NCBI RefSeq assembly: GCF_036373705.1
Contig: NC_089864.1
Coordinates: 4,307,001 to 4,371,000, forward strand
Source of the DNA: Amia ocellicauda
Lineage: Eukaryota; Chordata; Actinopteri; Amiiformes; Amiidae
DNA length: 64,000 nucleotides
Direction: 5' to 3'
Positions 1,794 through 61,047 of this stretch are shown one piece after another. A program made the position numbers and the translations under genes. Each line of letters begins with the position of its first letter. The first letter of the stretch is position 1. The notes below the pieces were generated by a model. That model did not search any database. It saw only the letters and a list, made by a program, of their open reading frames with translations, and was not told where the DNA came from.

Positions 1794-4700
1794 TTGTAAT
1801 AAATAAATATGGGGGGGGATTGGTGGACTAGCGTATATGAATGTTACTTATATAGAGAAAAAGGATATAGACGTTACAAAAACTCAGTTTCAGTTTTAAA
1901 GGAAAGGGTCACTCACATTACTTTATTTAAAATGCGACGACTCTGTGTCCCGCTGCTGTAGTGGTGTCTGTCCTGAGCCGCTCCTCTGTGTCCCGCTGCT
2001 GTAGTGGTGTCTGTCCTGAGCCGCTCCTCTGTGTCCCGCTGCTGTAGTGGTGTCTGTCCTGAGCCGCTCCTCTGTGTCCCGCTGCTGTAGTGGTGTCTGT
2101 CCTGAGCCGCTCCTCTGTGTCCCGCTGCTGTAGTGGTGTCTGTCCTGAGCCGCTCCTCTGTGTCCCGCTGCTGTAGTGGTGTCTGTCCTGAGCCGCTCCT
2201 CTGTGTCCCGCTGCTGTAGTGGTGTCTGTCCTGAGCCGCTCCTCTGTGTCCCGCTGCTGTAGTGGTGTCTGTCCTGAGCCGCTCCTCCGTGTCCCGCTGC
2301 TGTAGTGGTGTCTGTCCTGAGCCGCTCCTCTGTGTCCCGCTGCTGTAGTGGTGTCTGTCCTGAGCCGCTCCTCTGTGTCCCGCTGCTGTAGTGGTGTCTG
2401 TCCTGAGCCGCTCCTCTGTGTCCCGCTGCTGTAGTGGTGTCTGTCCTGAGCCGCTCCTCTGTGTCCCGCTGCTGTAGTGGTGTCTGTCCTGAGCCGCTCC
2501 TCTGTGTCCCGCTGCTGTAGTGCTGTCTGTCCTGAGCCGCTCCTCTGTGTCCCGCTGCTGTAGTGGTGTCTGTCCTGAGCCGCTCCTCTGTGTCCCGCTG
2601 CTGTAGTGGTGTCTGTCCTGAGCCGCTCCTCTGTGTCCCGCTGCTGTAGTGGTGTCTGTCCTGAGCCGCTCCTCTGTGTCCCGCTGCTGTAGTGGTGTCT
2701 GTCCTGAGCCGCTCCTCTGTGTCCCGCTGCTGTAGTGGTGTCTGTCCTGAGCCGCTCCTCTGTGTCCCGCTGCTGTAGTGGTGTCTGTCCTGAGCCGCTC
2801 CTCTGTGTCCCGCTGCTGTAGTGGTGTCTGTCCTGAGCCGCTCCTCTGTGTCCCGCTGCTGTAGTTCTGGTCCAGCGGGAGAGTCTGTGTGAAGCGGCCG
2901 AGCGGCGGACTGTCAGAGCCGGGGACACCGTCACCCTGGACTGCGGTGTCAAACACAGTCAAAAAACTCGCTGGTTTGTGCAGCGAGGCGAGGAGGCTCC
3001 GGTTCAGAAGATCGCCGGCAGCAGAAGAGCTGGGAATCACAATGAAGCTATTGCAGATGAGACAGACGATCAGCGCTTCTCTGTGCTGTGGAACAACAGC
3101 AGCAGCTCCATCAGCCTGAAGATCCAGAGCATCACTGACACAGACCTGGCGCTGTACTACTGCATGGAAATAGATGGTACACGGCTGGTATTTGGAAATG
3201 CGACCAGGCTTGTATATGGAGGTGAGGGATGTGAATCAATAGTGTGTATCAACGCTGAATTCTACGTATAAATTGTGTATCCTATATGTTAATATCTTAA
3301 ATGTCTTAAATGTTCATGTTTTGTACTTCAACTGCCCATTGTTATTTATCCATCTCAAATGATGAATTAGCGTGCATTCATTTATATCTGTACCGAACTT
3401 GAAATCCTTTGCATTGCTAATAAGTAAAACAGTTTAAAAAATGCATAGTAGGCCTACTTACTGTGATTATTTTTCTCTACCTTGAAACATTAATTGCTGA
3501 CGTTTGTACTTGTTTGACCCTGATGTTTACAGGTGATCAGAACTCTTCCACTATACATTCATCCTCACCAACAGCCTCTCTCTTCAATTCTTCCTCCTCC
3601 TCTCTCTCTCCATCTCCCTCTCCCTCCTCCTCTCTCTTTCCATCTCCCTCTCCCTGTGCCCCCTGTGTGCTGAGCTGGGCGCTGCTGGGCTGTGTGTCTG
3701 CAGGCTGCCTCCTGCTCTCCGGCTGTCTCTGCTGCCTCTGGAGCAGGAGAGGTGAGACTGTCCTCTCTCAGAGCTACTACAGTGTCATAGTGTTTCCATG
3801 ACATTAATGGGTTATATCAAGTTGGGCCACTGATGTCTCTGTGTTTTCCTGACAAGAGATAAGTTCTCTTCCAGGGTGTATTGAGGCCTGTCCAAACCTC
3901 TTCCCAGTGGCAAAACGGCAGGGAAACATGCCACATATGCCACCCACCCAGCTTCTTATTCACTCTGTTGTGCACATTTACCATTACAAGTTGCATATTT
4001 AGCAATTGCTTTTATGAGTTAAATCACTTTGGGACCCTGATGTCTCTGTGGATTCTTCACCAGGGACAATTTCTCTACCAGGTACAAATGTATTTAGCCC
4101 GGCCCAATGTGGCTTTCATTGGCAAAACAGCAGGTAAAATGCCACATATGCCAACCTATTTATACAAGTCATTTATTTAGCAATTTAAGTAACGGGTTAA
4201 TTTGCATTGGGCCACTGTTTTCTCTTGGAACAAATGGAAGCTGCGTGAATAAGAAGCTGCAAATAAGAAGCCAACTTCAGCTTTGTGTTAGTCCCGTACT
4301 TAGTCTCCTCTAGAGGCAGCAGCAGTGATTTTGGGGTTTGTTGCAATGGAGACACTGTTTATTTAATTCTGCTGAAGAAACTACAATATTATTATTATTA
4401 TAGTTGTTTTGTGATCTACATATTAGACAGAAGTAGAGAATTTTGCTGTCTGACCCCTAACTCTGTCTCTCTCTGTGTTTCTCTGCGTCCAGGTGGTGTT
4501 CAGTGTGTCGGGGCGCAGAGGAGTCCAGGGCAGAGCAGGAGTGAAGGAGCAGCGCAGGTATTGTGTACAGTCCTGATGGACACACTGTAGAGAGAGGAGC
4601 ACACAGGGGAGCCGCTCGACACACTGTAGAGAGAGGAGCACACAGGGGAGCCCCTCGACACACTGTAGAGAGAGGAGCACACAGGGGAGCCGCTCGACAC

Positions 4701-5113
4701 ACACTGTAGAGAGAGGAGCACACAGGGGAGCCGCTCGACACACACTGTAGAGAGAGGAGCACACAGGGGAAATGAATCCATCAGTTGTTTGTTAGCTCTG
4801 ATGTCTAGCAAGTGTGAAGAATGTGTATTCATTGGGTCATTATCACTGAGCTGTAATGACAGTAAAGGAGTGTAATGTTTGCCATTTTAAATGTTCTATC
4901 CACTCAATGTTAAAACAACTTGAATTTCTGTGTAGACATTCAAATAAACATGTCATTCCAAAGGCTCTTGAGGGGGTGAAATTCAAGCTGCTGATATATC
5001 TCCATCCATCAGCCTTTATCAATCCACTACAGGATGAGGCTGGCGAGTGTCTCTCTCACACACACACAACTGCAGTATATACAGCTCTGGGAAAAATTAT
5101 TTTTTTCCAGAGC

Positions 5114-5192
<79 letters not shown>

Positions 5193-8035
5193 TCACCTAA
5201 ACGATTATTAGGAACACCTGTCCAATTTCTCATTAATGCAATTATCTAACCAACCAATCACATGGCAGTTGCTTCAATGCATTTAGGGGTGTGGTCCTGG
5301 TCAAGACAATCGCCTGAACTCCAAACTGAATGTCTGAATGGGAAAGAAAGGTGATTTAAGCAGTTTTGAGCGTGGCATGGTTGTTGGTGCCAGATGGGCC
5401 GGTCTGAGTATTTCACAATCTGCTCAGTTACTGGGATTTTCACGCACAACCATTTCTAGGGTTTACAAAGACAGGTGTGAAAAGGGAAAAACATCCAGTA
5501 TGCGGCAGTCCTGTGGGCGAAAATGCCTTGTTGATGCTAGAGGTCAGAGGAGAATGGGCCGACTGATTCAAGCTGATAGAAGAGCAACTTTGACTGAAAT
5601 AACCACTCGTTACAACCGAGGTATGCAGCAAAGCATTTGTGAAGCCACAACACGTACAACCTTAAGGCGGATGGGCTACAACAGCAGAAGACCCCACCGG
5701 GTACCACTCATCTCCACTACAAATAGGAAAAAGAGGCTACAATTTGCACAAGCTCACCAAAATTGGACAGTTGAAGACTGGAAAAATGTTGCCTGGTCTG
5801 ATGAGTCTCGATTTCTGTTGACACATTCAGATGGTAGAGTCAGAATTTGGCGTAAACAGAATGAGAACATGGATCCATCATGCCTTGTTACCACTGTGCA
5901 GGCTGGTGGTGGTGGTGTAATGGTGTGGGGGATGTTTTCTTGGCCCCTTAGTGCCAATCGGGCATCGTTTAAATGCCACGGCCTACCTGAGCATTGTTTC
6001 TGACCATGTCCATCCCTTTATGACCACCATGTACCCATCCTCTGATGGCTACTTCCAGCAGGATAATGCACCATGTCACAAAGGTCGAATCATTTCAAAT
6101 TGGTTTCTTGAACATGACAATGAGTTCACTGTACTAAACTGGCCCCCACAGTCACCAGATCTCAACCCAATTGAGCATCTTTGGGATGTGGTGGAACGGG
6201 AGCTTCGTGCCCTGGATGTGCATCCCACAAATCTCCATCAACTGCAAGATGCTATCCTATCAATATGGGCCAACATTTCAAAAGAATGCTTTCAGCACCT
6301 TGTTGAATCAATGCCACGTAGAATTAAGGCAGTTCTGAAGGCGAAAGGGGGTCAAACACAGTATTAGTATGGTGTTCCTAATAATCCTTTAGGTGAGTGT
6401 ATACACACACACACAGACACGCACACACATATATATGTATATATTTAAAACAAAGACAAATATACAGCAAACAAGTGTGAATGTTTGATGTTAATTCTGT
6501 AATGAAGTTAATTCTTGTCACTGTCATTGTAGTGGGTTTCATTGTGTACATGAGCTAATTACATGTCTCATTACATGAGCTTGTTACAGTTACGCATTCT
6601 CTTTGAAGTCTGTGTGTGTGAATCTCACACATCAGCAGAAATGGTTTGTCACTCTGCTGGGTGGCGCTGTGTGTGGAGTGCTTGGAGCTGCACCTGAGAG
6701 ATAGCATGGTATGAATTTGAACAGGGGACTGCACCGTCTACACCAAAGCAAAACAACATGTCCTTTAAGATACTGATATCTCCTAAAACTGTACCTGAGA
6801 AAATGCTTGTATATTGTTTTAAAATCAACACTTGATCTGTCTGGGTATTTATTTATCATATATACATAAACTATCTCTGTATTATATACACTACCATTCA
6901 AAAGTTTGGGGTCACTTTGAAATGTACTTGTTGTGTCCTTTACAATAACATCAAATTGATCAGAAATACAGTGTAGACATTGTTAATGTTGTAAATGACT
7001 ATTGTAGCTGGAAATGGCTGATTTGTAATGGAATATCTACACAGGTGTACAGAGCCCCATTATCAGCAATCATCAGTCCTGTGTTCCAATGGCACGTTGT
7101 GTTTGCTAATCCAAGTTTATCATTTTAAAAGCCTAACATTAGAAAACCCATTTGCAATTATGTTAGCACAGCTGAAACTGTTGTGCTGATTAAAGAAGCA
7201 ATAAAACTGGCTTTCATTACACTAGTTGAGTATCTGGAGCATCAGCAATTGTGGGTTCGATTACAGGTTCAAAATGGCCAGAAACAAAGACCTTTCTGCT
7301 GAAACTCATCAGTCTATTCTTGCTCTAATCAGAATAGAAAGAGGAGTGGAGGCCCCGGTGCACAACTGAGCAAGAGGACAAATACATTAGAGTGTCTAAT
7401 TTGAGAAACAGATGCCTCACAGGTCTTCAACTGGCAGCTTCATTAAATAATGCCCGCAAAACACCAGTCTCAACGTCAACAGTGAAGAGGCGACTCCAGG
7501 ATGATTAAAAATCATTATTTCTAACCTTGTCAAAGACTATATTTCCTATTAATTTTGTTATATGTCGTATTCAAACTCATTTCATGTATGTTTTCATGGA
7601 AAACAAGAACATTTCTATGTGACCCCAAACTTTTGAACGGTAGTGTCAAATGTGTCAGATTAACAGATATAGTCTTGTGGTTTTACAGAATAGTCCACAC
7701 CAAATTGCTGCATGAAAGCAGTGGGAATGGGTGAGACTAGTGTTTGTATTTCTGTAGTGTTGTGATGATGATGTGTATAGGCCCTTATATTTCATAAGAA
7801 TTCACATTTTTAAACTGCAAAAGGATGTGATTGACAACTGTGAAGTATGGACTTGTCATTTTTTATTGAAACCAACATTGTTTATTTATATTTATTTACC
7901 TCTCAGGTGGAAGACAGAGATGTGAATTATGCCTCTCTGGAGATCCGTACAGAGCCCCAACGCCCCAGGACTCGACCAGAGGAGAAGGAAGACCTCTGTA
8001 CTTACTCTGACATTAATCACTGTAGGAGGACATGA
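798..8035 (+). CDS. NITR-like inhibitory receptor, gene A (5 exons, 270 aa)
   Basis: The exons are 798-840 (leader), 2865-3221 (V), 3533-3751 (stalk and transmembrane), 4493-4557 and 7907-8035. Phases are 1-1-1-0 and the total is 270 codons plus stop, with no interruption. The V exon shows ESLCEAAERRTVRAGDTVTL, the first canonical Cys (LDCG), the core Trp (TRWFVQ), LALYYC, and a J-like FGNATRLVYG in the same exon. The last feature is the NITR hallmark. Next comes a stalk of about 40 residues rich in Ser and Pro, a Cys-rich transmembrane segment (CVLSWALLGCVSAGCLLLSG) without a charged residue, and a tail with a consensus ITIM, VNYASL, and an ITIM-like CTYSDI. By family knowledge such a tail would recruit SHP phosphatases in leukocytes. 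Intron 1 holds the 43-bp minisatellite and intron 4 holds a Tc1 element. NITR is the best fit, though another VJ-type fish receptor is possible. Confidence 0.82.
883..1940. other. Intron 1 of gene A, upstream part
   Basis: This is AT-rich sequence with no exon signal that I can support. It contains an (AAT)n microsatellite near 1750-1792 and a G-run near 1811. Confidence 0.5.
1749..1792. repeat. (AAT)n microsatellite
   Basis: About 14 uninterrupted trinucleotide copies lie in intron 1 of gene A. Confidence 0.9.
1941..2864 (+). repeat. 43-bp minisatellite, 21 full units plus a final partial unit, ending in the V-exon acceptor of gene A
   Basis: The unit starts CTCTGTGTCCCGCTGCTGTAG, where the last TAG is the acceptor, and continues TGGTGTCTGTCCTGAGCCGCTC after that point; it repeats every 43 bp. 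The first unit starts at 1941 and the last, partial one at 2844. That last partial unit is the real polypyrimidine tract and TAG acceptor of the V exon that starts at 2865. Single-base variants occur in a few units (near 2288 and 2522). The antisense strand has no stop in any of the three frames, which produces long spurious minus-strand ORFs. Confidence 0.95.
4579..4770 (+). repeat. 39-41-bp minisatellite, 5 units, just after the exon 4 donor of gene A
   Basis: The unit begins CACACTGTAGAGAGAGGAGC and recurs five times, starting about 20 bp after the GTATTG donor at 4558. The matching place in gene E (60825-60840) has only one copy of the first part of the unit, so this is an expansion specific to A. 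Confidence 0.9.
5081..5116. repeat. Short palindromic MITE remnant (ACAGCTCTGG termini)
   Basis: It starts ACAGCTCTGG and ends CCAGAGCTGT as an inverted repeat with almost no internal sequence. Longer relatives are at 10111-10190 and 36758-36833. It is followed by (GT)n and (AT)n tracts to 5189. Confidence 0.75.
5117..5189. repeat. (GT)n(AT)n compound microsatellite
   Basis: A GT tract runs into an AT tract, and the first Tc1 copy is inserted at a TA at its right end. Confidence 0.9.
5190..6400 (+). mobile_element. Tc1/mariner DD36E element, copy 1 (in intron 4 of gene A)
   Basis: The terminal inverted repeats CACTCACCTAAA and CTTTAGGTGAGTG are flanked by TA on both sides (5188-5189 and 6401-6402). 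It belongs to the same family as the copies at 19428-20648 and 40536-41756, and is about 10 bp shorter. Confidence 0.92.
5338..6367 (+). pseudogene. Tc1/mariner DD36E transposase, frameshifted
   Basis: The reading frame begins MGKKGDLSSFERGMVVGARW (helix-turn-helix region) and continues through the first catalytic Asp (AWSDESRFLL). Near 5943 it lacks 11 bp that are present in the other two copies (the part encoding HTLG), which shifts the frame. The C-terminal part, with the second Asp (FQQDNAPCHKG) and the final Glu (SPDLNPIEHLW), continues in another frame from about 5951 to 6367. The intact relatives are 346 aa. This copy should make no active transposase, although its terminal repeats look mobilisable by the intact copies nearby. 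Confidence 0.9.
6889..7645 (+). mobile_element. Internally deleted Tc1-like element
   Basis: The terminal inverted repeats are CACTACCATTCAAAAGTTTG and CAAACTTTTGAACGGTAGTG. A TA precedes the left end; the right flank is degenerate. The inside keeps only the N-terminal transposase region: ATG near 7274 (MARNKDLSAETHQSILALI) and, after breaks, a stretch like RCLTGLQLAASLNNARKTPV. The catalytic core is missing. It lies in intron 4 of gene A. Confidence 0.85.
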
Positions 8036-9631: not shown

Positions 9632-9906
9632 GATACTCCTCTCCAGCTCTGTGGCTGCAGGCCATTGGCTGTCCTTCAGAGGAGAGAGCAGAGCGCCTGT
9701 CTGTGAGCCTCAGCCACGGCTCTGACACACACAGCCCTGCTGCTACAGGTGTGAGCTGCTCAGAGCCCAGGTGTGAGGCGCTCACTCTCCTCACTGCAGA
9801 TACTGACACTGCAGCTGATCATGTGGGCAGATATGTGTTTGTACTTCTGCAGAAAGTTGCAGGTGCAGTTAATGAAGATGCAGCTGGAAATGCAGGCACA
9901 GAATAA
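9632..9906 (+). pseudogene. Possible Ig-like exon relic
   Basis: An open stretch encodes SEERAERLSVSLSHGSD, then CEALTLLTAD and GRYVFVLLQK. The L.L..AD....GRY.F pattern resembles the last strands of an Ig-like domain such as those in genes B and C. A related piece lies at about 51960-52085 on the minus strand and is interrupted. No flanking exon or leader was found, so I regard it as a duplicated fragment. It could instead be part of an unknown interspersed repeat. Confidence 0.3.
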
Positions 9907-10110
9907 TAATACTGCCTGTTGACACACCCTTTTATTTTGGAAAGGGAGACAAAGATAGACATTTTGACAGTTTGATTGCGTAAATACTCTACATCAACTA
10001 AATATAGGTGCCTATTGCATGGAGGAGAAAAACAGAAAAGATGTATTTGTTTGATTTCTATAATTCAAAGCAAATAATATCGATAAATACAATTATAAAA
10101 TTCCATATAT

Positions 10111-14800: not shown

Positions 14801-16479
14801 GGCGCCAGCGCCCGCAGGGTTAAACCGCACTGTCACAGCTGCCCTGCTGTACAGACGGAGGCTCAGGGGCTGCCCATAGGAGACAGAGGTGTTCTCCTCA
14901 CGGCCTGCGGAGGGAACAGGACACAGCTGTAAATGAAAGTGAGTTTACAGATTTTATTAGAATTAAAAGCTGACACTCTTGCCTATGACAAAGACGTAAT
15001 AAATAGGAATTTTGGCAGGTAGCATAAATAGAGATATTTATGCACATCAATTAGGATTCTTGCAGCAGCAAAGAAAACAAAGAAACATGAACACATCACT
15101 CCAGTGTTGGCTTCTCTTCACTGGCTGCCCATGCGCTACAGGATAGATTTCAGAGTTCTCTTATTAGCATTGAAAGCACTAAAGGGACTGGCACCTCCCT
15201 ACCTAAAAGATCTCCTTATAGAATACACTCCAGGAAAACAAAGGAGATCCCAGAAAACAAAAAATACACAAGAAAACCACAGGTGGCAGAGCATTTTGTT
15301 ATAGGACCCTGAAACTGTGGAACGATCTTCCAGACTATGCAAGAGATGCCCCCTCTGTCTCAGCCTTTAAATCACTCCAGAAAACTCATCTCATCCTTTT
15401 AGTCTCTGTTTTTCTAGTCACCATAACCCATAGTGCCACCGTTGCACCATGGACATGCAATGTACAATGTATTCTGTCATCTCCTGCATTTTACTATTAG
15501 TAGCTGAACACAATTTCCTCTTTCTTGTCTTTCAGAAATAGCCCCCTCTGAGGGGCTGACGAGGCACCCTGTCCCCCACTCCAGAGTGCTGATGTGGCAC
15601 CCACATCCCTGACCAGTCATCCCCACTGATGATGTTCCGAGACAGAGATTAGTTTTCTCTTATAACAGTCTGCAATCCTATAGGAGTTTGTTATTCTCTC
15701 CTGAATGCCTAATGACTTTTAATGTATTTTAATTGTTCATTGTTTATTTATTTGTTGATCTTGTTTTGTTTGTGTATCTGTGAAGCATTCTGTAGTTACC
15801 CTGCGAAGGGCACTAAACTAAATGAAAATTGAATGGTTATTTTAATAGACACATTTCAGACTCTTACCTGTGACAATAAGGTGAACACTTCCAATAACAA
15901 TCAGTTGTTTTCTCTCTCCCTCACTGCGACACTCATACGTCCCTCCATCAGAGAACAGTGTGTGCTGGAGGTTCAGAGAGAAGTTTCCCTGTCTGATCCT
16001 CTCCAGGGGAACCTCAGTCCTGTTCTCAAACCCTAGGCCAGGAAACAGTTTACCTAAACTAAACTCACAGATACGCTGATTTACTGTCTCCCACTTGATG
16101 TAGATGTGATCTATAGGAGTCCCTCTGTAGGCTGATCCATCACAGGGCAGAGTGACAGAGTCCCCGACTCTCACTGAGACAGGAGCTGAGGAGACTGAGA
16201 CACAGTGAAGAGACAGACTGAGACACTGCAACACAAATTCACTGCAGACATGTAAAATCTCAGGTTGAGACTTCTGTTTTGTTTTTTATACATCACAAAG
16301 ATTTTATATATTAGGGAAAAATACACATTCTCAGTTTCCCGGCATCTCTATGTGATGCAGGTCATTATGGATTTCAAAGGAATTCAATCAATGTAAAGAA
16401 GCAAAAACTAGGAAAGGAAACAAGTGTCTCAGAGCCCCTACCTCCCACCAGTGTCACAGCCAGGAGCAGCCCAGGAATC
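11812..16479 (-). CDS. Two-Ig-domain membrane protein, gene B (B7/butyrophilin-like V-set; first coding exon not found)
   Basis: The minus-strand exons are 16442-16479 (rest of the leader, IPGLLLAVTLVGG), 15868-16185 (V-set), 14617-14904 (second Ig-like) and 11812-11954 (transmembrane and tail). All junctions are phase 1 and all frames are open. The V-set shows VRVGDSVTLPC, the core Trp (YIKWE), FENRTEVPLERIRQGNFSLN and TYECR, as in B7/butyrophilin domains. The second domain (SVSYGQPLSLRLYS to DQGTYIVLDSQS) lacks the normal cysteine pair. The membrane span is LVIGLVIALLVLLVLLAGAI, followed by a tail of about 20 residues without tyrosine after the membrane-proximal YY. The leader exon begins in mid-codon after a CCACAG acceptor, so the ATG must lie in an upstream exon that I could not identify. 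Compared with gene C it has one Ig-like domain fewer. A deleted Tc1 element sits in its last intron and an L2-like LINE sits in the intron before. Confidence 0.75.
11986..13112. other. Last intron of gene B, proximal part
   Basis: AT-rich sequence with no recognised exon. A short imperfect inverted repeat built on GATCAGAAATGGCAGTG / CACTGCGATTTCTGATC lies around 12217-12280. Confidence 0.4.
13113..14006 (-). mobile_element. Internally deleted Tc1-like element, second family
   Basis: The termini CACCAATCAGCCATAACATT and GTTATGGCTGATCGATG are inverted repeats. It is unrelated in sequence to the DD36E copies and lies in the last intron of gene B. Confidence 0.85.
13160..13830 (-). pseudogene. 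Tc1-like transposase with internal deletion
   Basis: The reading frame begins MTKGQIVMARRLGQSISKTA, a helix-turn-helix region, and continues to the first catalytic Asp (AWSDES). It then jumps, near 13385, to the region just before the final Glu (WPPNSPDLNPIEHLWDVLDK). About 100 residues including the second Asp are missing, so the protein cannot be catalytic. The last part (SMPRRVRAVLGQKGG) lies in a shifted frame. An apparent longer frame that runs on to 12994 is flanking intron and not coding. Confidence 0.85.
15085..15832 (+). mobile_element. L2-like LINE, 3' end
   Basis: The first 200 bp encode LHWLPMRYRIDFRVLLLALK and KGLAPPYLKDLL, then, after breaks, LWNDLPDYARD, which is the conserved C-terminal end of fish L2/Rex-like reverse transcriptase ORFs. 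An untranslated tail follows. It is truncated at the 5' end and broken, and lies in an intron of gene B. Confidence 0.75.
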
Positions 16480-16997: not shown

Positions 16998-16999
16998 TA

Positions 17000-22233: not shown

Positions 22234-22241
22234 CCTAGATG

Positions 22242-22511: not shown

Positions 22512-22519
22512 CCTAGATG

Positions 22520-31389: not shown

Positions 31390-33325
31390 TGTCTCTCTCA
31401 GGCTGTGTAACACTTTTGACAGAAATGCAAGTATGTCCCTCCTCCATTGGCCCATGCTATGATTTTACTGCATATCACAATGCATACCACAGGATGACTC
31501 TTCCTGTCAGTCAGTCCCATTGTGACTATATTGCTACTGTAGTAGCTCTGAGAGAGGACAGTCTCACCTCTCCTGCTCCAGAGGCAGCAGAGACAGCCGG
31601 AGAGCAGGAGGCAGCCTGCAGACACACAGCCCAGCAGCGCCCAGCTCAGCACACAGGGGGCTGGGTGCTGGTTACTGGTTTCTGTAAACACAATCATCCT
31701 GACCATTATAATCAAAATTATAACCGACACCTAAAGCACAGTCAGCATCGATCCAGATCACAGTTTAATATCATAAGAAAGTTCGAATAAAAGCCGAACA
31801 AATCAGTAGGCAACTATCACCAGAGCCCGGTTCTGTCCCCCACTGTAACGCTTTGTTGTGAACGTTATAATTAGAAACACAATGTCAATCATATCAATTG
31901 ATCACATCAGTAACGAAAGACAGAAAGGCTGAATACAGGAGTCCTCTCTCACCGTAGACGAGCCGGGTCCCATTCCCCAACACAAGCCCTCCCTCTCCTC
32001 TCTCCACGCAGTAGTACAGCGCCAGGTCCGCCTCGGTGATGCTCTGGATGCGCAGACTGGCGGAGCCGCGGGGGTCTTTATCCGACTCCCACACCACAGT
32101 GAAGCGGGGGTCGTCGCCTCTGGAGAACCGTGAGAAGAGTTCGTCTACTGCCGTTTTTTTTGTTGCTAAAATGCTCAGGAATGGCGTCTCCGCGTCGCGC
32201 TGCCCAAACCACAGAGTCTCTTGCTTAAATCCGATGTCGCAGTCCAGGGTGACGGTGTCCCCGGCTCTGACAGTCCGCCGCTCGGCCGCTTCACACAGAC
32301 TCTCCCGCTGGACCAGAACTACAGCAGCGGGACACAGAGGAGCGGCTCAGGACAGACACCACTACAGCAGCGGGACACAGAGGAGCGGCTCAGGACAGAC
32401 ACCACTACAGCAGCGGGACACAGAGGAGCGGCTCAGGACAGACACCACTACAGCAGCGGGACACAGAGGAGCGGCTCAGGACAGACACCACTACAGCAGC
32501 GGGACACAGAGGAGCGGCTCAGGACAGACACCACTACAGCAGCGGGACACAGAGGAGCGGCTCAGGACAGACACCACTACAGCAGCGGGACACAGAGGAG
32601 CGGCTCAGGACAGACACCACTACAGCAGCGGGACACAGAGGAGCGGCTCAGGACAGACACCACTACAGCAGCGGGACACAGAGGAGCGGCTCAGGACAGA
32701 CACCACTACAGCAGCGGGACACAGAGGAGCGGCTCAGGACAGACACCACTACAGCAGCGGGACACAGAGGAGCGGCTCAGGACAGACACCACTACAGCAG
32801 CGGGACACAGAGGAGCGGCTCAGGACAGACACCACTACAGCAGCGGGACACAGAGGAGCGGCTCAGGACAGACACCACTACATCTTTACTAGGATAGTCT
32901 AATATGAAATTGTACCATGGTTAGCATCACTGAGTTTGTAGTCGATTGATTGATTGCTCAGTATTCTGCAGCCTGGAGCCACAGCCGAGTTCTTGCATCT
33001 CTTGCAGTCGCACACGGATGTGTTAAACCCAGTGTACCAGGACGATATACAATAATAACAATACTTCACCTGTAATGTTGAATAGGCGACATTTGCCTCC
33101 ACCGTTCACCGGATCTGTACTATTTACCACTGCGCACTGTACGAGGATCCAATGGAACTATTCTTTATCAGATCATAAAACTTCATTTTGAACTGATAAT
33201 GAAAGAAAAGCAAAGGTAAGTGTCTCAGGCGCCGCTAGTAATAGACAAGGTGAGAGACAGAGAGAGCAGCAGTGGAGTAAGTGCCGGTACTCACGGAGGA
33301 GGGAGAGGAGCAGCGGCGCTGCCAT
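30650..33325 (-). CDS. NITR-like inhibitory receptor, gene D (5 exons, 228 aa)
   Basis: The minus-strand exons are 33295-33325 (leader MAAPLLLSLL), 31953-32318 (V), 31568-31681 (short stalk and transmembrane), 31094-31143 and 30650-30775. Phases match and no frame is broken. The V domain has LVQRESLCEAAERRTVRAGD, LDCD, LWFGQRD, ADLALYYC and a J-like LGNGTRLVYG. The stalk is only about 9 residues (ETSNQHPAP), against about 40 in gene A. The transmembrane exon is identical to those of A and E over about 93 bp. The tail carries a consensus ITIM, SDYANI, so an inhibitory role is inferred. A second tyrosine, TVYLHQ, does not fit the motif. Intron 1 carries 13 units of the 43-bp minisatellite right at the V acceptor. 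The tail resembles that of E more than those of A and F. Confidence 0.82.
30926..30990. repeat. (ATT)n/(AAT)n palindromic microsatellite
   Basis: Tracts of ATT and then AAT lie back to back in the last intron of gene D. Confidence 0.85.
31352..31388. repeat. (GT)n microsatellite
   Basis: About 18 GT units lie in intron 3 of gene D. Confidence 0.9.
32319..32881 (-). repeat. 43-bp minisatellite, 13 units, starting at the V-exon acceptor of gene D
   Basis: The unit is the reverse complement of the arrays in A and E, as expected because gene D is on the minus strand. ACAGCAGCGGG recurs at 32321 and every 43 bp to 32837. The unit nearest the exon forms the real acceptor. The array is very homogeneous. 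Confidence 0.95.
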
Positions 33326-38435: not shown

Positions 38436-40397
38436 ATGGCCCAGTGTGTTGTCCTGGTCTGGATTCTCACAGTGTGGCTTGATAGTACAGGTAGGTGCTC
38501 TCTAGGTGCTTCTTTCTTTCTTTATTTGTGTGTTTGGTTGTTTTTGTAAAACATTTCCTCTGTTCTATGAGAAAGCAAGAGAAAAGGGAAACTGTGTCTC
38601 TCAGTCTCCGCAGCTCGTGTCTCAGTGTCAGTTGGAGACTCTGTCACTCTGCCCTGTAATGGGTCAGCCTGCAGAGAAATTCCTGAGGAGCAGCTATACA
38701 TTGTGTGGGAGACAGAAAAACAGCAAGTCTGTGAGGTCAGTGGAGGGAGACTCAACACCAGCATCGGCTTTGAGAACAGAGCTGAGATTCCCTTGGAGAG
38801 GATCAGACAGGGGGACTTCTCCCTGACCATTAACCACACACTGTTCACTGATGAAGAGATGTATGAGTGTCGCTGTCTGGGAGAGAAGAAAAATATGTTT
38901 TTCATTGGAAATGTTCATCTCATCATCACAAGTAAGAGTCTGAACTTTTAATATTAGTAAAGCAATCTTTAAACTTCCTGTCATTTACAGCCTCGTCCTA
39001 TTCCCTCCCTCCGCAGGCCATGAGGAGAGCAGCTCTGTCTCCTATGGGCAGCCCCTGAGCCTCCGTCTGTACAGCAGGGCAGCTGTGACAGTGTGGTTTA
39101 ACCCTGCGGGCGCTGGAGCCTCTCTCCCAGTGTGTGCTGTAGAGGGCGGCACCGTGACCCCTGACCCTGCCTATGTGCCTCGAGTCTCAGGGCAGGAGCA
39201 GGAGGTCACACTGTCTGCACTGAACTTCACTGACCAGGGCTCCTACACAGTGCTGGACTCCCAGAGCAGGACCATCAGCACTGTGAACGTCACTGTGACA
39301 GGTAGGACAGGGGCCGGGCTCTACTGGAGATCAGGGCTGTGATGAGAGACAGGACTCGGGCTGATGTTCTCCTGTTTCATCCTCTCAGCTCACAGAGACG
39401 CCCTCACCCTGCCGTCTGGAGCCTCGCTGTCTCTCCCGCTCTACTCTCCTGGGCCGGTGGAGGTGCTGTTTGCTGCTGCAGAAGAGGGAGCCTGTGTCTC
39501 AGTGTGCTCTGTGGAGAGGGGCGCAGCGAGCCGCCCTGGCCCCGGGTACGAGCACAGAGTGTCGGTGCAGAACGGCTCTCTGACCCTGCGATCACTCACA
39601 GCAGCTGACCAGGGAAACTACACAGTGAGGGAGTCTGGGAACAACCGCACCATCAGCACCATCTCTGTGTCTGCAGAGGGTAAGTGTCCCTATAATAACA
39701 CTGTTATACACTGTATGGGTGTGTCTCAACTCTGGTCCTTGGGGCACACTGACCTGATTTTAGTTCCAACCAAACTCTCACTTAATTGAACTTTTTACAT
39801 TATTTTTTGGACAGTTCAATATAAAATGATAAGACTTAAATTCACCAACATTTTGTAAGTTGAGCAAATGTAATGGTCAACTTATTCAATTAAGAGCCAG
39901 CAGGACCATGCGTCCCTGGGGCCAGGGTTCATTAGTGTCCCTGATCCAAAGCACCAAGACCGTAGCCAGTGTTCAAAGAAAATAAAAATGAAAGGAATTA
40001 GAGTAATTGGGTAATTTGAGATCTTGGATGGAACAAACAGCAGCAGGACTGTGAGCCCCAGACCCGGTCTGAGAAGAACTGCACTGTGTGACCAAACAAC
40101 ACTGGGACTGGAGTCCAGACTGAGGGCCCTGACATCAGTGCAGAAATGTGCTGAATGGACCTCTGTGCTGCTGTCCCACTGAGAGACCTCTACTGCAATA
40201 CCCACAAGTGACCAAATTCATTTTACTGCTTTGTTGTTTCTCTTCTAGAATCAGTGTTCCTGGTTGGCCTGGTCGCAGGGATCTTAGTACCGATCTTAGT
40301 GCTGATCTCAGTGCTGGGACTCGCTCTGCTCTTCTGGCACAGACGGCGGCATCACAATAAAGACCTGGCCCAGGAGGGCACAGAGAGCTCCCCATGA
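38436..40397 (+). CDS. Three-Ig-domain membrane protein, gene C (B7/butyrophilin-like V-set; 365 aa)
   Basis: The exons are 38436-38490 (leader MAQCVVLVWILTVWLDSTG), 38614-38931 (V-set), 39017-39301, 39389-39679 and 40249-40397. All junctions are phase 1 and the 365-codon frame is intact. The V-set has SVSVGDSVTLPC, core Trp (YIVWE), FENRAEIPLERIRQGDFSL and MYECR. Domains 2 and 3 have Ig-like ends (TDQGSYTVLD; TAADQGNYTVRE) but Val where the second cysteine should be. The membrane span is about VFLVGLVAGILVPILVLISV plus LGLALLFW. The tail HRRRHHNKDLAQEGTESSP has no tyrosine, and no charged residue lies in the membrane span, so no signalling motif is visible. It is homologous to gene B over the V-set and domain 2. 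A DD36E element lies 138 bp after the stop. I do not know the family's name. A ligand or adhesion role is only inferred. Confidence 0.8.
39715..39960. repeat. Old inverted-repeat element in the last intron of gene C
   Basis: TCAACTCTGGTCCTTGGGG near the start and CCCTGGGGCCAGGGTT near the end are imperfectly complementary, with matching CTTAATTGAA / TTCAATTAAG inside. It is probably a MITE; the family is not identified. Confidence 0.4.
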
Positions 40398-53356: not shown

Positions 53357-55701
53357 TCATTTGCTTTTAAGATGATTGATTTCAGAGTAAATGCACTGGT
53401 CTGCCCTCTCCTCTGGTTGTTCCCCGGGGTGTCGTGGGAGTGTACGGATCTTCAGAGAGGCATAAATCACTTCTCTGCCTTCATCCTAACAGGAAAAAGT
53501 TACATCAAGTTGTATTACTTGTGAGACATCAATCATATTCCTGTGTAGTTCAAATCATCTATATATAAAAATAATATATATAATACATATATTATTATTA
53601 ACATATAAGAATCAATCAGTAATCCATTGTTTACACCAATGCTTCTCATCCCTGTCCTGATGATTGTGATTTCACTCTCTCTCAATTACATACTGTCTTA
53701 TATACTGTCCCCTTAATTAAACTGTTCAAATGTGTTCAGTGTGTACAGCAGTTCCTCTGAGCAGCACGACAGTAAACTTGTATACCTTCTGCTCCACACT
53801 TTCATTCACCCCTGCTCTGCACTTCCTGGACATTGGACATACATAAACACACAAACTGTCCCACATAGTGAGCATACAAAATAGACAATTAGAGTACATT
53901 CCCCACCCAGCTCTGGAGACTGAGTAGCACAAATGTGCACTGAAGACACTGAAGAAAGCACAACTCATTACCAACTATTGAGTTCTGTTGAGATCCTTTA
54001 ATCTGGCATCATAGAAACTCTACTACCTGCGTACTGTCACTGTAGGGGCTCTGAGAGGTAAAAGTCTTGCCTTTCTTGGTGCAGAGCTTGTGGAGGAGGC
54101 TGGAGGAGAACAGGAGGGAGACTGCTAACGCATAGCCCAGCAGCACCCAGCTCAGCATGCAGGGAACAGGGGGAGCGGGAGAGGGAGTGGGTGGGGCGTG
54201 GGAAGAAGGAGACGGAGAGATGCAGGGAGAGGGAGAGGAAGAGGGACAGAGACAGGAAGATGAGGTGGCGGTAGAGGTTGAGATGGGGGGTGAGGTCAGG
54301 TGGTTACGATGAGCTGTGAAAATAAATTCAGGAGAGAATTCCATCGCAAATGGATTACTGTGTCTTAATCAATAACCCCTATTTATCACAGAAGCCAATA
54401 ATGTGTATAGCTTAAAATTGAATTGTGTTTATATATATGTAATTTAATGATCAAATCATTATATGGAATTATGAAGTGAAACTAAACTTAATTCCCCCCG
54501 ATTATGCAAACAGAGAACTCTTGCTCTCTCTCCTCACCTTCATAGACGAGTCTGGTCACATTTCCAAATCGTATCTGCCCTCCCTCTCTCTGGGCGCAGT
54601 AGTACAGCGCCGGGTCTGTCTGTCTGATGTTCTGGATCTGCAGACTGATGGAGCGCGCCGTGAAGTTCCACACGGGAGAAAACCTCTGGTCTTTTGTGCT
54701 CCCCAGGTAAAGATCATTGGGTTGGTTGGCCCTTGTGTAGATTTCAATCCCCAGAAACGGAGCCTGTTCATCTCGCTGTACAAACCACATAGTTCTTTGG
54801 TTGTGTCTGAGGCCACAGTCCAGGGTGACGGTGTCCCCGGCTTTGACAGTCCGCTGCTCAGCAGCTCCACACAGACTCTCCCACTGGGCCAGAACTACAG
54901 CAGCAGGACAAATTTGGTGTTAAAAAAGCCATTTGTAATTGGTGGAACGACCTTCCCACTGAGGGGGCAGGACAGCACAATCCCTGACCATCTTCCAGCG
55001 ATACAAGACACATCTGTTCAGACTGTACCTGTAATACAGCAGCCTGATTCTCTGGGATGTTCAGCACAATTGCTTTTAAACAATTAACTTATGCTTCCTT
55101 TGCTCCTGTGTACTTGTTAGCACTTCTATTGTATTACTGGGACAATAGAACTTAAGCATATAGAGGAGACTTAAATGTTTCTGCTCTTCTTACCTCATTG
55201 TGCTAGGATGTAGGCCTATGCTTATAGTGTTTTGTACTGATTGTATGACTGCACTTTTGTATCAATTGTATCCTTTTTATGAAAATCATCTCCCTGTCAA
55301 TATATATAATGTTGTTTGTTGATTGTTGGAATTAGAATAACTATGAACTAGACAGAAAGAGAAAGATATAACCCTTAATATAAACAATATAATATCACAA
55401 GACAATATCAATCTGAACCAAATGCTGAACTTTAAAAAAATGTTAATAGGCTATAATATTTGATTTTGACCATTAACTTTGCTGTTGTAGGCTCTATAGG
55501 AAAACAAAATTGCCTGATATAGCCTAACCTACATTGTGACTAGGGACTGAAATCACAACTGAAATATTCACCTGGCTGTAAATAGGCTACATTGCTTGCT
55601 TCATTTACAATAGCCTAAATATATTTTAGATCTAAAGTGTGGCAGTCGCAGTACTCACAGAGGAAGAGGAGCAGAGCCGCCCTGCTGTCCGGCACGACCA
55701 T
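53357..55701 (-). CDS. NITR-like inhibitory receptor, gene F (non-canonical splice options)
   Basis: The minus-strand exons are 55659-55701 (leader MVVPDSRAALLLFL), 54538-54894 (V), 54071-54313 (stalk and transmembrane), 53786-53825 or 53786-53811, and 53357-53485. The V domain has AAEQRTVKAGDTVTLDCGLR, MWFVQRD, PALYYC and a J-like FGNVTRLVYE. The stalk is about 50 residues rich in Ser, Thr, Pro and Cys. The span is CMLSWVLLGYALAVSLLFSS. The last exon has a consensus ITIM, VIYASL, and an ITIM-like CIYSEI. Where the other genes have a GT donor after the transmembrane exon, F has GC (AAAG followed by GCAAGA). With the usual acceptor the small exon would give a stop. An acceptor 14 nt further in, or a downstream GTAGTA donor at 54026 joined directly to the last exon, keeps the frame to the ITIM. 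It may be a functional gene with alternative tails or a gene starting to decay. Confidence 0.72.
54905..55320 (-). mobile_element. L2-like LINE fragment in intron 1 of gene F
   Basis: The phrases GGTGGAACGACCTTCCCACT and CGATACAAGACACATCTGTT read, on the plus strand, as the WNDLP...YKTHLF end of an L2-like reverse transcriptase ORF. It begins about 20 bp from the V acceptor of gene F, where the other NITR genes have the 43-bp array. Its far end is approximate. Confidence 0.6.
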
Positions 55702-58160
55702 CTCAGCAGACACTGACTGCACTGGAGAGACTGGGGCTCTAGGGATTAATGTAGCTTCGTATTCTGTCAGAGTGACATCACACGCACTGGGCAGCGGCAA
55801 GGCCATCGAGATCCACTGACCAATAACCTACACCACGCTGTCGCTTTAACACCGGGACTGAGTGACATGAAAATGTGAAGGTGTCTTAACTCAGTGTAAC
55901 ATTTCTGTAATGAGCTACCAGCTCTTCATCAGTACAGTACTCATATAATAATAATAGTAATAATAATAATGAATTATCCTACTAAAACATAGCATTTAAT
56001 TGTTAACACACAGGGTCTGTGTTAAAAAGAGAAGGATGAAACAGAAAAGGGCCAGTTGATATTTTTGGCCACCTTCTCTGTTTCAGTAGAGTCTGCTCTC
56101 CATATCGCTTAAGAAACACAACACGCTGAACAGTGACTCTGCAGGGTGGCTGAGTTTCAGAGGTTTTGGCAGAAACCCGTTCGCCACAATTAAGTATTGC
56201 TCTACTTTTCCATGGAGCATTATAAGGGTCCCCACATGGTCAAAATCCATGCAGTTTATTTTACTTTCAGGTACATAGTCTCTTTCAATGCAGTCTTGTT
56301 CCTCCACTAGATGGAGACTCTTACAATCACAAGCAGTGCTTCTGTATCACTTTAATGCTTCATAATGGCGACATCAGTTTTGGATCTAATCTGCCTGTGG
56401 ACACCTGGCTATACTTATAATAATGCAGTAATATGCCGTGGTCATGTAATTAGATCTGATCACATATACATATATATATATATAGTGCTGTTGATAAATC
56501 TGGATTGGATTATCCAGGGACCATTATATCATTTAATATTGAAATTGAAATCTCAAAATTATTAATAAACTCTGATTAGGAAAATTATTAGTTAAATTGA
56601 GTCATTGAGAGATCAGCTGGAACAAAACCGTAGGGCCCCAGGACTAGGGCCAGGAACCAGTGTGTCTGCCCAAGTCTTGCAGCGACAATACTGGTGCTAA
56701 ATTGAAAGGGGGGTTGCAGCACAGAGGAGACGAGGTACAGAGATCTGTGTCTGATCATCTGGGCTCCACAAGGACTTTGAAAGAGCAGTTTTTACATTCT
56801 GTGGTATAGCTATAGTGGATAGGGAGCGAATAATTGGTTGCTTCCTGGGAGGGCCTGTGTCATGCAGTTTGCAGGCATCTGTGTTAATAAACAGAAGCCC
56901 CCAAGAGCTCTTTTCTCATTAAAGCTGCAAGAGAGTTTTGATTGTGCAATATGAACGAAATGATTCCTAGATTGAGGCAAACAGAGAGACTGGGCAACTG
57001 GAGAACTGTACTGATTGTGTTTAGGTGGTGTGCATATACTCAGTTTACATAATGGCTGCAAAAGGTTGCACACAGTTACTGGGCAATGGAGGGGAAATTT
57101 AACAGCTTTATGATAAACCCCCAATGGTCTGTTGCTCAGTGCACAGAAAACCACAGCCCACATCCTCCCACCATCAGAAATGAGACACATGTGAAAATAT
57201 ACAACAACAGCAACAACAACAACAGCAACAACAACAACAGGCATGAATGAATGAATGTCTGAATCCCACAGGAATAACATAGAAATTATCCACTGAGTCC
57301 TGATGTTGATCAGCTTTAGAAGCCCTGACCCCAAACGTACAGCTAGACCAAATCAAAATTGTGACCTACCTGCTTATCGCAAAATACCAAACTGTACCCT
57401 ATCGTGGTTAATTTATTGTTAGAATCAATTTTCTACTATTTTTAAATGAACGTAATAGCCTCCAGTATGGTAATATGCTATCCGCAGGTTGCGCAAAGTT
57501 TTGATTTGGTCTATAGCCTCTAGTCTAGTGTGTAACCCTGACCTCAGCCTTCTTATACGTGTGCATAACAGCAGAACTCAGATTAAGTGCACTGAAGGTA
57601 TGCCTGTGTTATTCTTGTGGGATTCACAAATCAGTTCATTATGGATTGCTGTCCATTATTGTAAAGTGTGATAATGTATTAAACAGAAGACATAATCATA
57701 ATACAGTAATACGTTTACAGTCTGTGACAACGGGCAGACAAAAGAGCAAAGGTGCAGCATGATATTTCTTCCAGCTGAGCATCTGCTCCAGGCCCTGCAG
57801 CTGCACATGCCTTGCGCTGTGCTTTTTTTTATGCTGGGGGGTTGTGTTTCACTGGTGTTACTTGCAGAGTCTAACACTGATCTGTGAGTTTCTGTGTGAG
57901 TGCATGTGTGTGTGTGTGCTCCTGTGTGCTCCTGTGTGCTGCAGAAACTATGTGTCAGCGGTTTAAGATATGGGCTGCGATTAATCTTTATAGACCAAAT
58001 GCAGCACCCCCCTCCCACTTTTCAGACATTTCCGTTAAATCAAAGGTGGCTGATTGGCAGTGGAAACCAGCGTCCTGGCTAGGGCCCCTCGAGTGTGGAG
58101 AAGGCTCTGTCCCGACCCTCGGTGCTCCTGTCCTCAGGTCACACCTGTGAAACGGCTGAG
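55702..58160. other. Divergent intergenic region between genes F and E
   Basis: The DNA next to 55702 shares with the gene A leader region the 30 or so bases just upstream of the ATG. (CAACAA)n lies near 57205-57238. No other gene was recognised; it should contain the promoters of F and E. Confidence 0.45.
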
Positions 58161-61047
58161 ATGAGCCACGGAGCCCGGCTGCTCGTCTCCCTCCTCCTGC
58201 GTGAGTACTGAGCCTCGCTGCTCGGCTCTGTGCCACTACCGACATACAAACGGACTGCTTGACGTCTGAGCTCAGCATACAGGAAACACAGATCAGGATC
58301 ACGACAGCGGCGTCGAGCCAACAGCGGCTCAGGGTTACCGATGTGAAGTGCAGAGACGTCGCACATTGACATGTTTATAATTGCGATTCGTGGCAAATTA
58401 ACGGGCGAGACACCGCGACTTAATAAAATAAAATAAAAGCAAAACTAATTCCGACAGATGCATTCTCAGAGATACCGGTCTTGTGTGTGTTCAGCAGACG
58501 TGTGATGAATGTGTGATTTACATGTGATTGTCCTTCCATTGAAGATCTTCAAACTCAAAGCAATTCTCAAAGTGTCCCAGTGAACAACAAGTGCGCAAAT
58601 GATTAGAAATTAGTCCAGGACTGTATAAAATCTAATTCTGGGCAACTGCCTTTTTAAAGATATGTAGATTCTGTCTGTCCTGAGCCGCTCCTCTGTGTCC
58701 CGCTGCTGTAGTGGTGTCTGTCCTGAGCCGCTCCTCTGTGTCCCGCTGCTGTAGTGGTGTCTGTCCTGAGCCGCTCCTCTGTGTCCCGCTGCTGTAGTGG
58801 TGTCTGTCCTGAGCCGCTCCTCTGTGTCCCGCTGCTGTAGTGGTGTCTGTCCTGAGCCGCTCCTCTGTGTCCCGCTGCTGTAGTGGTGTCTGTCCTGAGC
58901 CGCTCCTCTGTGTCCCGCTGCTGTAGTGGTGTCTGTCCTGAGCCGCTCCTCTGTGTCCCGCTGCTGTAGTGGTGTCTGTCCTGAGCCGCTCCTCTGTGTC
59001 CCGCTGCTGTAGTGGTGTCTGTCCTGAGCCGCTCCTCTGTGTCCCGCTGCTGTAGTGGTGTCTGTCCTGAGCCCCTCCTCTGTGTCCCGCTGCTGTAGTG
59101 GTGTCTGTCCTGAGCCGCTCCTCTGTGTCCCGCTGCTGTAGTGGTGTCTGTCCTGAGCCGCTCCTCTGTGTCCCGCTGCTGTAGTGGTGTCTGTCCTGAG
59201 CCGCTCCTCTGTGTCCCGCTGCTGTAGTGGTGTCTGTCCTGAGCCGCTCCTCTGTGTCCCGCTGCTGTAGTGGTGTCTGTCCTGAGCCGCTCCTCTGTGT
59301 CCCGCTGCTGTAGTGGTGTCTGTCCTGAGCCCCTCCTCTGTGTCCCGCTGCTGTAGTGGTGTCTGTCCTGAGCCGCTCCTCTGTGTCCCGCTGCTGTAGT
59401 GGTGTCTGTCCTGAGCCCCTCCTCTGTGTCCCGCTGCTGTAGTGGTGTCTGTCCTGAGCCGCTCCTCTGTGTCCCGCTGCTGTAGTGGTGTCTGTCCTGA
59501 GCCGCTCCTCTGTGTCCCGCTGCTGTAGTGGTGTCTGTCCTGAGCCGCTCCTCTGTGTCCCGCTGCTGTAGTGGTGTCTGTCCTGAGCCGCTCCTCTGTG
59601 TCCCGCTGCTGTAGTGGTGTCTGTCCTGAGCCGCTCCTCTGTGTCCCGCTGCTGTAGTGGTGTCTGTCCTGAGCCCCTCCTCTGTGTCCCGCTGCTGTAG
59701 TGGTGTCTGTCCTGAGCCGCTCCTCTGTGTCCCGCTGCTGTAGTGGTGTCTGTCCTGAGCCGCTCCTCTGTGTCCCGCTGCTGTAGTGGTGTCTGTCCTG
59801 AGCCGCTCCTCTGTGTCCCGCTGCTGTAGTGGTGTCTGTCCTGAGCCGCTCCTCTGTGTCCCGCTGCTGTAGTGGTGTCTGTCCTGAGCCGCTCCTCTGT
59901 GTCCCGCTGCTGTAGTGGTGTCTGTCCTGAGCCGCTCCTCTGTGTCCCGCTGCTGTAGTGGTGTCTGTCCTGAGCCCCTCCTCTGTGTCCCGCTGCTGTA
60001 GTGGTGTCTGTCCTGAGCCGCTCCTCTGTGTCCCGCTGCTGTAGTTCTGGTCCAGCGGGAGAGTCTGTGTGAAGCGGCCGAGCAGCGGACTGTCAGAGCC
60101 GGGGACACTGTCACCCTGGACTGCGGTGTCAGACACCAGAGGGAAACCCTGTGGTTTGGACAGCGAGGCGAGGAGACTCCGTTCCTGGGCATAATAGTCT
60201 CTATAAAATCTGGGACGGATGAGGTTTCCTGTCATTTCTTCCAAGGCTCTGACCCTCGCCTCTCCGCTGCTCTGAAATCCAGCACCCACTCCATCAGTCT
60301 GCGCATCCACAACATCACCGAGGCGGACCTGGCGCTGTACTACTGCGCGGAGAGAGCGGGGGGAGGCTTTATTTTAGGAAATGGGACCAAACTTGTAGAC
60401 GGTGAGAAAACTTCTTCACCCTTGATTCGTGTATTTTGATCAATAATATGTATTACTATTAAAAATATAACTACTATTATTGTAGGACACGTCAGTGGAG
60501 CCCCTGCCCCCTGTGTGCTGAGCTGGGCGCTGCTGGGCTGTGTGTCTGCAGGCTGCCTCCTGCTCTCCGGCTGTCTCTGCTGCCTCTGGAGCAGGAGAGG
60601 TGAGTCTATCCTCTCTGAGGCACTGCAGGGCTGAATAATTTAGAGATTTGGTGTCTCCTCTTTGTATTGATCTCAGATCTTTTCCATTTTCCACATTGTG
60701 CTCCACAGTGCTGCCTTAACTCTATGTCTCTCTGTCTCTCTGTCTTTGTGTCTCTGTGTCCAGGTGGTGTTCAGTGTGTTGGAAGGAGTGAAGGAGCAGT
60801 GCAGGTATTGTGTACAGTCCTGATGGACACACTGTAGAGAACTATACAGTCTGAACTGTAGTGTAGGGTCGAGAGGACCATGGAGCTCAGCTTGTTTTGT
60901 TTTTCCGTGTTTTTGCAGGCAAACGATGTGTGGTCAGTTTATGCCAATGCAGAAATGCACACAGACCCTAACTGCACCCTGACGAGACGAGCTGCAGAGG
61001 AGCGCTCGGTGTATGTTCTCCAGGGTGGGCCGGAACCGGAATTTTAA
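58161..61047 (+). CDS. NITR-like receptor, gene E (5 exons, 226 aa, degenerate ITIM)
   Basis: The exons are 58161-58200 (leader MSHGARLLVSLLL), 60045-60401 (V), 60486-60599 (short stalk and transmembrane), 60764-60804 and 60919-61047. All phases match and the frame is open. The V domain has LVQRESLCEAAEQRTVRAGD, LDCG, LWFGQRG, an extra cysteine in VSCHFF, ADLALYYC and a J-like LGNGTKLVDG. The stalk is only about 9 residues (GHVSGAPAP). The transmembrane exon is identical to those of A and D. The last exon resembles that of D, but its tyrosine motifs are SVYANA and SVYVLQ, and neither has I, V or L at the +3 position. A normal ITIM function is therefore doubtful. Intron 1 has the largest 43-bp minisatellite. 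It could be a decoy or activating partner form, but no charged membrane residue supports the latter. Confidence 0.8.
58672..60044 (+). repeat. 43-bp minisatellite, 31 full units plus partial ends, ending in the V-exon acceptor of gene E
   Basis: CTCTGTGTCC recurs at 58691 and every 43 bp to 60024, and the last partial unit is the V acceptor itself. Five units have GCCCC where the others have GCCGC, at 59071, 59329, 59415, 59673 and 59974. The spacings of 6, 2, 6 and 7 units show block duplication inside the array. Confidence 0.95.

Follow-up and report, generated by a model that had tools for sequence, protein, structure and literature searches.

Immunoglobulin class-switch regions are kilobases long, consist of tandem repeats and act in B cells by AID. 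In trypanosomes, conserved 3′ ends are among the features that delimit VSG cassettes. Genetic manipulation has shown that the 70-bp repeats upstream of VSG genes promote access to archival VSGs (available text of PMC4858185). The 'mirage' minisatellites of amphioxus are tandem repeats that lie over intron–exon borders of globin and Adh3 genes; they comprise many units with splice signals, their length is unstable and either border of an exon may be affected. The mirage of BflGb6 covers the end of an intron and the start of an exon, in units of 150–160 bp that are 81–100% alike (available text of PMC3087553 for both statements).

Here we describe a 43-bp minisatellite that abuts the V-exon splice acceptor of NITR-like receptor genes in the bowfin, Amia ocellicauda (Holostei). 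It resembles class-switch regions in that its tandem repeats lie within the intron that immediately precedes an exon of an immune gene, but nothing in the bowfin data suggests somatic action. Amphioxus mirages are the nearest precedent (available text of PMC3087553); both are tandem repeats of unstable length at an intron–exon border with splice signals in their units. The bowfin unit holds the acceptor but, unlike in the mirages, it has no detectable exon part, 118 of the 130 whole units over nine arrays are identical to the consensus, and the unit is common to nine paralogous receptor genes. The VSG 70-bp repeats are the nearest functional likeness (available text of PMC4858185), in that a tandem array lies near a hypervariable gene and may form a boundary of duplicative gene conversion; unlike VSG switching, the bowfin exchange is an inherited, germ-line one that we infer from coincident breakpoints, and it also occurs without arrays.

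The original prediction, made from the DNA letters, knew of no described receptor family with such an arrangement; in the light of the available mirage text, its kind is not wholly new. New here is a splice-site minisatellite that has spread across a receptor family, most likely by conversion. The literature searched, outside which most subscription papers lie, yielded no paper on an NITR minisatellite, no title on NITRs among the papers that also treat gene conversion and, among the matches listed, no title on bowfin NITR genes (holostean NITR work may exist). The terms 'tandem repeat', 'gene conversion' and 'recombination' are absent from the main text of PMC2442602, as available, which treats NITRs.

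The arrangement bears on an old question, namely how families of innate receptors retain a shared frame and still vary their binding sites. The likely units of exchange (leader, array plus V start, and transmembrane (TM) exon) are visible here, and they are near-identical between genes with V exons that differ by 29–57% in the bins directly following the first cysteine. The array is a visible, length-variable marker of that exchange, and also a natural test of how the spliceosome chooses one acceptor from a series of up to 32 near-identical ones.

Results

A ladder of splice acceptors before the V exon

The window (the whole 64-kb stretch analysed, C21:4307001-4371000) holds four V exons of one subfamily, in genes A, C, D and E (Table 1). 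Arrays of one shared 43-bp unit had been claimed beside three of these V exons, and TRF found them there: 1941-2865 in gene A (21.5 copies, 99% matches), 32318-32882 in gene D (13.1 copies, 100% matches, minus strand) and 58672-60045 in gene E (32.0 copies, 99% matches), each on the strand of its own gene as predicted. The count of three array genes stands for the window; the fourth V exon, that of gene C, lacks an array, and in the genome the array accompanies nine of ten V exons.

The claim that the unit is itself an acceptor was confirmed by the acceptor 21-mer CTCTGTGTCCCGCTGCTGTAG, present in 22, 13 and 32 copies in the arrays of A, D and E. At up to three mismatches the window total is 67, versus 0 in 100 shuffles. 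Each array thus forms a ladder of splice acceptors in which 22 nt separate one 21-mer from the next, and 21 (A), 12 (D) and 31 (E) acceptor-like copies precede the true site, in agreement with the 12 to 31 extra sites originally proposed. In all three arrays the final copy is ...CTGCTGTAG/TTCTGGTCCAG, and the array ends exactly at the TAG of the V-exon acceptor, as the original prediction had it. The assignment of the acceptor to this final TAG is based on the open frame of leader plus V and on protein models, which are predictions; the leader-to-V junction at the final TAG is seen in models P0001 (A), P0007 (D) and P0006 (E). Each unit also contains CCTGAGC, with its A placed 28 nt upstream of the G of the AG; at a guess, this is a candidate branch point.

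Table 1. Features of genes A, D, C and E in the window.
Feature	Position	Strand	Basis
Gene A leader exon (MDGLDSRAALLLFL, phase 1)	798..840	+	Sequence; in frame with V; P0001 has the same start
Gene A 43-bp array, 21 whole units and one partial	1941..2864	+	TRF; 22 21-mers; unit walk
Gene A V exon, first 80 bp in homogenised block	2865..3221	+	V-set E=9.4e-11; frame; divergence profile
Gene A exon for stalk and transmembrane segment (second homogenised island)	3533..3751	+	98-bp comparison; P0001
Gene A cytoplasmic exon	4493..4557	+	Sequence; P0001
Gene A 39-bp array, 4.8 copies, from 21 nt past the cytoplasmic-exon donor	4579..4770	+	TRF
Gene D V exon	31953..32318	-	V-set E=5e-07; P0007
Gene D 43-bp array, 13 whole units	32319..32881	-	TRF; 13 21-mers; unit walk
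Gene D leader exon (MAAPLLLSLL), different leader type	33295..33325	-	Sequence; frame
Gene C V exon of this subfamily, without array (0 units), acceptor TTTGTCCTGCTGCTGTAG	54538..54894	-	V-set E=2.4e-10; 3′ end by eye
Gene C leader exon (MVVPDSRAALLLFL)	55659..55701	-	Sequence; frame
Gene E leader exon (MSHGARLLVSLLL)	58161..58200	+	Sequence; frame; P0006
Gene E 43-bp array, 32 units	58672..60044	+	TRF; 32 21-mers; unit walk
Gene E V exon	60045..60401	+	V-set E=4.9e-07; P0006
Gene E transmembrane exon	60486..60599	+	1 difference to A in 98 bp

Family identity

The definition of NITRs includes a V and/or I domain that ends in a J or J-like motif, FGXGTXLXV, and NITRs lacking the I domain have been described (available text of PMC2442602). 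The genes had been called NITR-like, a view supported by a V-set domain, a J-like motif and ITIM-type motifs. A, C, D and E, as well as four full-length models, score better than the gathering score for V-set. The V domains end in FGNATRLVY (A), FGNVTRLVY (C), LGNGTRLVY (D) and LGNGTKLVD (E), which are variants of the J-like motif rather than exact matches. Inspection by eye located cytoplasmic ITIM-type motifs in P0001 (VNYASL), P0004 (VSYHSL), P0005 (VSYTSL), P0007 (SDYANI) and P0008 (SDYATV), and none in P0002, P0003 and P0006; in NITRs, a cytoplasmic ITIM or itim is a trait of inhibitory members. The transmembrane segment, also by eye, carries no charge, and a second Ig domain (an I domain with six conserved cysteines) was not found in the four full-length models scanned. 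The V domain, J-like end, uncharged transmembrane segment, ITIM-type motifs and clustered, diverse V family are shared with the NITRs of bony fish (PMC2442602, available text).

The protein predicted for gene A has 207 residues and matches 'uncharacterized protein LOC136711101' of A. ocellicauda along its whole length with 100% identity. Protein relatives at E <= 0.001 number nine, eight from bowfin and one from spotted gar, all named 'uncharacterized' and with no named NITR among them. In a PDB search, the best 60 of 3542 matches were mostly antibody-type, scFv or TCR V domains, an uninformative outcome.

Distribution in the genome

A protein search of the genome (988 Mb in 385 contigs) gave at least 51 V matches. 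The close subfamily comprises at least 10 V exons, all at C21 4.09-4.39 Mb, and more distant matches lie on C6, at about 4.49 Mb and at C21 2.0-3.05 Mb; these counts are lower bounds, 150 of 197 candidates having been scored. Genes of the close subfamily outside the window are named here by their position on C21. The 43-bp array is present at nine of the ten V exons found, gene C being the exception, and in all nine genes its end is the acceptor. The arrays contain 9, 7, 14, 19, 6, 21, 13, 32 and 9 whole units. At nine of the ten V exons the 33 bp across the acceptor/V junction match exactly; gene C, the remaining one, shows two mismatches. Because the array genes are not independent, the presence of the array in nine of nine counts as one origin and not as nine trials.

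In the genome, all 65 matches to a two-unit query fall inside the nine arrays. The 21-mer at up to two mismatches matches 137 sites, 131 in the nine arrays and 6 elsewhere, while the reversed pattern, used as a control, matches once. TRF over the window and eight flanking loci (117.5 kb, all picked for, or near, these receptor genes) returned 11 arrays, nine of 43 bp and two of 39 bp, at thresholds that we set ourselves (period >=15, >=3 copies, score >=150). Arrays of near-identical units are hard to assemble and one assembly was examined, and an assembly artefact has to be considered; we regard it as exceedingly unlikely, given that the nine arrays have eight different whole-unit counts, unit variants that are private (in E, one change present in five units), differing flanks and occurrence on two strands.

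Upstream acceptor copies

Splicing to the internal upstream units is predicted to give a stop in 121 of 121 cases across the nine genes. The nine outermost edge positions also give a stop, and seven of these follow an AG; in eight genes the decoy stops lie at codon index 33-42. The last acceptor is the one used in each of eight bowfin protein models (predictions, one per cluster, with gene C and the 4217-kb gene absent). Identity of decoys to the true site from -20 to -1 is found in 20 of 21 cases in A and 31 of 32 in E, with the outermost edge counted, and in 0 of 14 in the 4245-kb gene, the true site of which has one change. The upstream copies look like decoys, and the array probably has no dedicated splicing function. 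The identity of most decoys to the true site, together with the stop from every internal one, would suit a rheostat in which decoys compete with the true site and the yield of productive transcript falls with array length. We consider such a role very improbable: every model joins the leader to the last site, gene A and its 4305-kb twin have 100% identical V proteins and arrays of 21 versus 6 units, and similar repeats in amphioxus are reported not to disturb splicing (PMC3087553, available text).

Other uses of the array were considered and set aside. A recursive splice site is contradicted by the absence of AGGT (AG/GT) from three concatenated units, and coding use by stops in all three frames. 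RSS-guided rearrangement finds two weak RSS-like matches in 64 kb, neither within an array. One of the two, in the V exon of gene D at about 32073-32101 (-), consists of CACTGTG, a 13-nt spacer and ATAAAGACC, and is probably due to chance. Derivation of the unit as a copy of the V-exon start was rejected when shuffles scored as well in 806 of 2000 trials for A and 150 of 2000 for C; the apparent likeness arose because the shared acceptor inflated the score. For the 22 nt of the unit after TAG, this shuffle comparison detected no source in the V-exon start of A or C.

Homogenised blocks

Over V codons 1-26 the nine array genes have a pairwise divergence of 1.0-1.1% (third positions, 22/936, from 8/468 and 14/468). 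In the 13-codon bins after codon 26 the divergence is 29, 32, 57, 45, 37, 11 and 39% (third positions, 32, 37, 60, 46, 35, 18 and 43%), so that the step from 1% to 29% comes directly after the first cysteine of V; the 11% bin is codons 92-104, where the sequence is conserved as far as YYC. Seven of the nine array genes are identical over the 80 bp with which the V exon begins, and gene C differs by 8 to 10. A second island lies in the TM exon, with 0-4 differences per 98 bp among the nine array genes and 35-37 to gene C (for gene A, 0-2 to the eight others and 35 to C). The third is in the leader (105 bp, seven genes compared), where four genes are identical and C differs by 14. The leaders of A and its 4305-kb twin are identical to each other and have 10 differences from the identical four; gene D, the 4245-kb gene and gene E have other leader types.

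Other subfamilies make a general constraint on the V start unlikely: in eleven of their non-array V exons, chosen from 19 loci with near-duplicates, L036 and L037 left out, the V start diverges by 28-41% and the rest by 27-70%. Because these V starts diverge to this extent, amino-acid constraint alone is insufficient for the homogeneity in the array genes. Repeated rounds of putative gene conversion on the scale of exons do explain the block pattern. The array as the cause of homogenisation is weakened by the leader and TM islands, which have none, and by the L023/L024 pair described below. Gene C lacks the array, V-start homogeneity and TM homogeneity alike, and because it lacks the latter two it is no clean control for the array.

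A shared variant unit and the left edges of the arrays

Gene A and the 4272-kb gene have the same variant unit, with the same base at the same index (-14) from the V exon. Estimated by hand from index, position and base, the chance of this coincidence is about 1 in a thousand. Beyond codon 26 the V exons of the two genes are 66% identical, and because the variant unit is shared despite this low identity, the array and the V start have probably moved together between genes.

At the left edge of the array, intron sequence otherwise unlike the unit ends in GTAG directly before the first unit in D and in the 4217-kb and 4305-kb genes; the flank ends in GAG in the 4094-kb gene, and in E and the 4272-kb gene an AG lies a few bases off. 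In A and the 4245-kb and 4393-kb genes the AG is within a unit-like partial copy, and gene A has no AG just before this copy. In several genes the left-edge AG might be the recipient's own acceptor, after which the array was slotted in.

The differing left flanks, the unit-like left-edge acceptors of A and the 4245-kb and 4393-kb genes, and the single acceptor of gene C, which resembles the last part of the unit, are what independent growth of the arrays in each gene from a shared ancestral acceptor would leave. We judge such growth very improbable. One 43-bp unit occurs across the loci, including 22 nt that are absent from C; unit divergence between loci is near zero; and the variant at index -14 is common to two genes.

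Identity cliffs and a donor-side array

Comparisons of the three closest gene pairs were made with the arrays masked. All three pairs are near-identical from the array rightwards, and leftwards the intron is diverged or unalignable. D and the 4245-kb gene have 2 differences in 758 positions downstream versus 27 in 156 in the two upstream bins that adjoin the array (p=7.5e-20); upstream, diverged homology extends over about 160 aligned bases, and beyond that the sequences are like shuffled ones. Near-identity in this pair begins at the array and ends at V+757, 7 bp beyond the TM exon. A and the 4305-kb gene are 96-98% identical downstream of the array, the upstream 900 bp align no better than shuffled sequence, and the near-identical stretch, which begins at the array, reaches V+916 in A and so extends 30 bp beyond the TM exon. 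The 4094-kb and 4217-kb genes are 98.4% identical over 377 bp and 86% over the next block, with 1 difference in the 98 bp of the TM exon; their nearest eight upstream bins are at 60-75%.

The pair L023/L024, of another subfamily on C21, has V exons that are 98.6% alike over 1165 bp starting 7 bp before the exon, and upstream of this cliff the sequence is unlike and contains no array. Because this cliff at the acceptor has no array, arrays are not needed for identity cliffs, and exon-limited homology suffices to produce them. The homogenised blocks and the cliffs lend indirect support to the originally suggested link between the array and V-exon exchange, in which an active role of the array is hypothetical.

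A further subfamily has the mirror image of the acceptor array. In four of four V exons (L020, L021, L022 and L025, at C21 2.63-2.70 Mb), a 31-bp array with 10.6 to 17 copies per gene starts from the V-exon donor, and a genome search for the 31-bp unit gave 29 matches at those four places only. The true donor is GCTGCG/GTAAGAGAGG, and in each array GGTAAA is retained at 2 to 6 of the later sites. The match between L020 and L021 sets in about 135 bp ahead of the aligned V start and covers the V exon (97-100% per 100-bp bin) and the array; the outer sequence is unalignable on both sides until a block about 300-500 bp past the array.

These limits invite the reading that the array works as a recombination anchor, the array on the 5′ side and the TM exon on the 3′ side bounding a V cassette that is swapped in the germ line. 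The near-identity of D/4245 kb and of A/4305 kb spans just this interval, in the former pair it stops at the array although diverged homology continues upstream, and in the 31-bp subfamily V exon and array edge a near-identical block between unalignable outer introns. We nevertheless think a working anchor unlikely. The leader and TM islands are homogenised without such an array, the L023/L024 cliff has none, and cliffs at exons are expected anyway, since conversion tracts end where homology ends and the introns share little. Equally doubtful is the broader proposal that the acceptor array and TM exon are paired anchors of a VSG-like germ-line V cassette system and that V-border minisatellites evolved at least twice.

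Proposed origin of the arrays

We favour, with moderate confidence, the explanation that exon-anchored gene conversion spread a splice-site minisatellite across the bowfin NITR-like genes. In one gene, a 43-bp unit with the V-exon 3′ splice site would have grown into a tandem minisatellite next to the V exon. Interlocus gene conversion, anchored by exon homology, would then have copied the array and the first ~80 bp of V to the other eight genes, in several cases apparently placing the copy just after the recipient's own acceptor AG, and repeat slippage or unequal exchange would have altered array length later. The last AG is assumed to be used in splicing, which would leave the upstream copies as decoys with premature stops. 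As homology common to otherwise unrelated introns, the array may allow later exchanges to start at the V-exon edge.

Several observations count against spread by exon-anchored conversion. V divergence after codon 26 is not uniformly high, the leader and TM exons are equally homogeneous without the 43-bp array, the L023/L024 cliff lies at an acceptor without one, and the part of the unit that follows TAG has no detectable source in the V start.

Other repeats and minor observations

A 39-bp array follows the cytoplasmic-exon donor in three paralogs, with 4.8 copies in gene A, 2.5 in L014 and 3.5 in L015, and the 9-mer GAGCCGCTC is common to this array and the 43-bp unit. An inverted repeat of 160 bp (372-531 and 701-860, 99.4% identical) corresponds to two leader regions, that of gene A and that of the twin at C21:4305 kb in head-to-head orientation, which lie about 170 bp apart and perhaps share a two-way promoter. 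Weak V-like matches outside the subfamily, at 38607-38750 (+) and 15914-16165 (-), contain GDSVTLPC at E of about 0.2 and are possibly other Ig-domain genes between the receptors. Beside gene A, at about 5190-6400, a stretch resembling a DNA transposon was recognised by eye, with terminal inverted repeats CACTCACCTAAA...TTTAGGTGAGTG.
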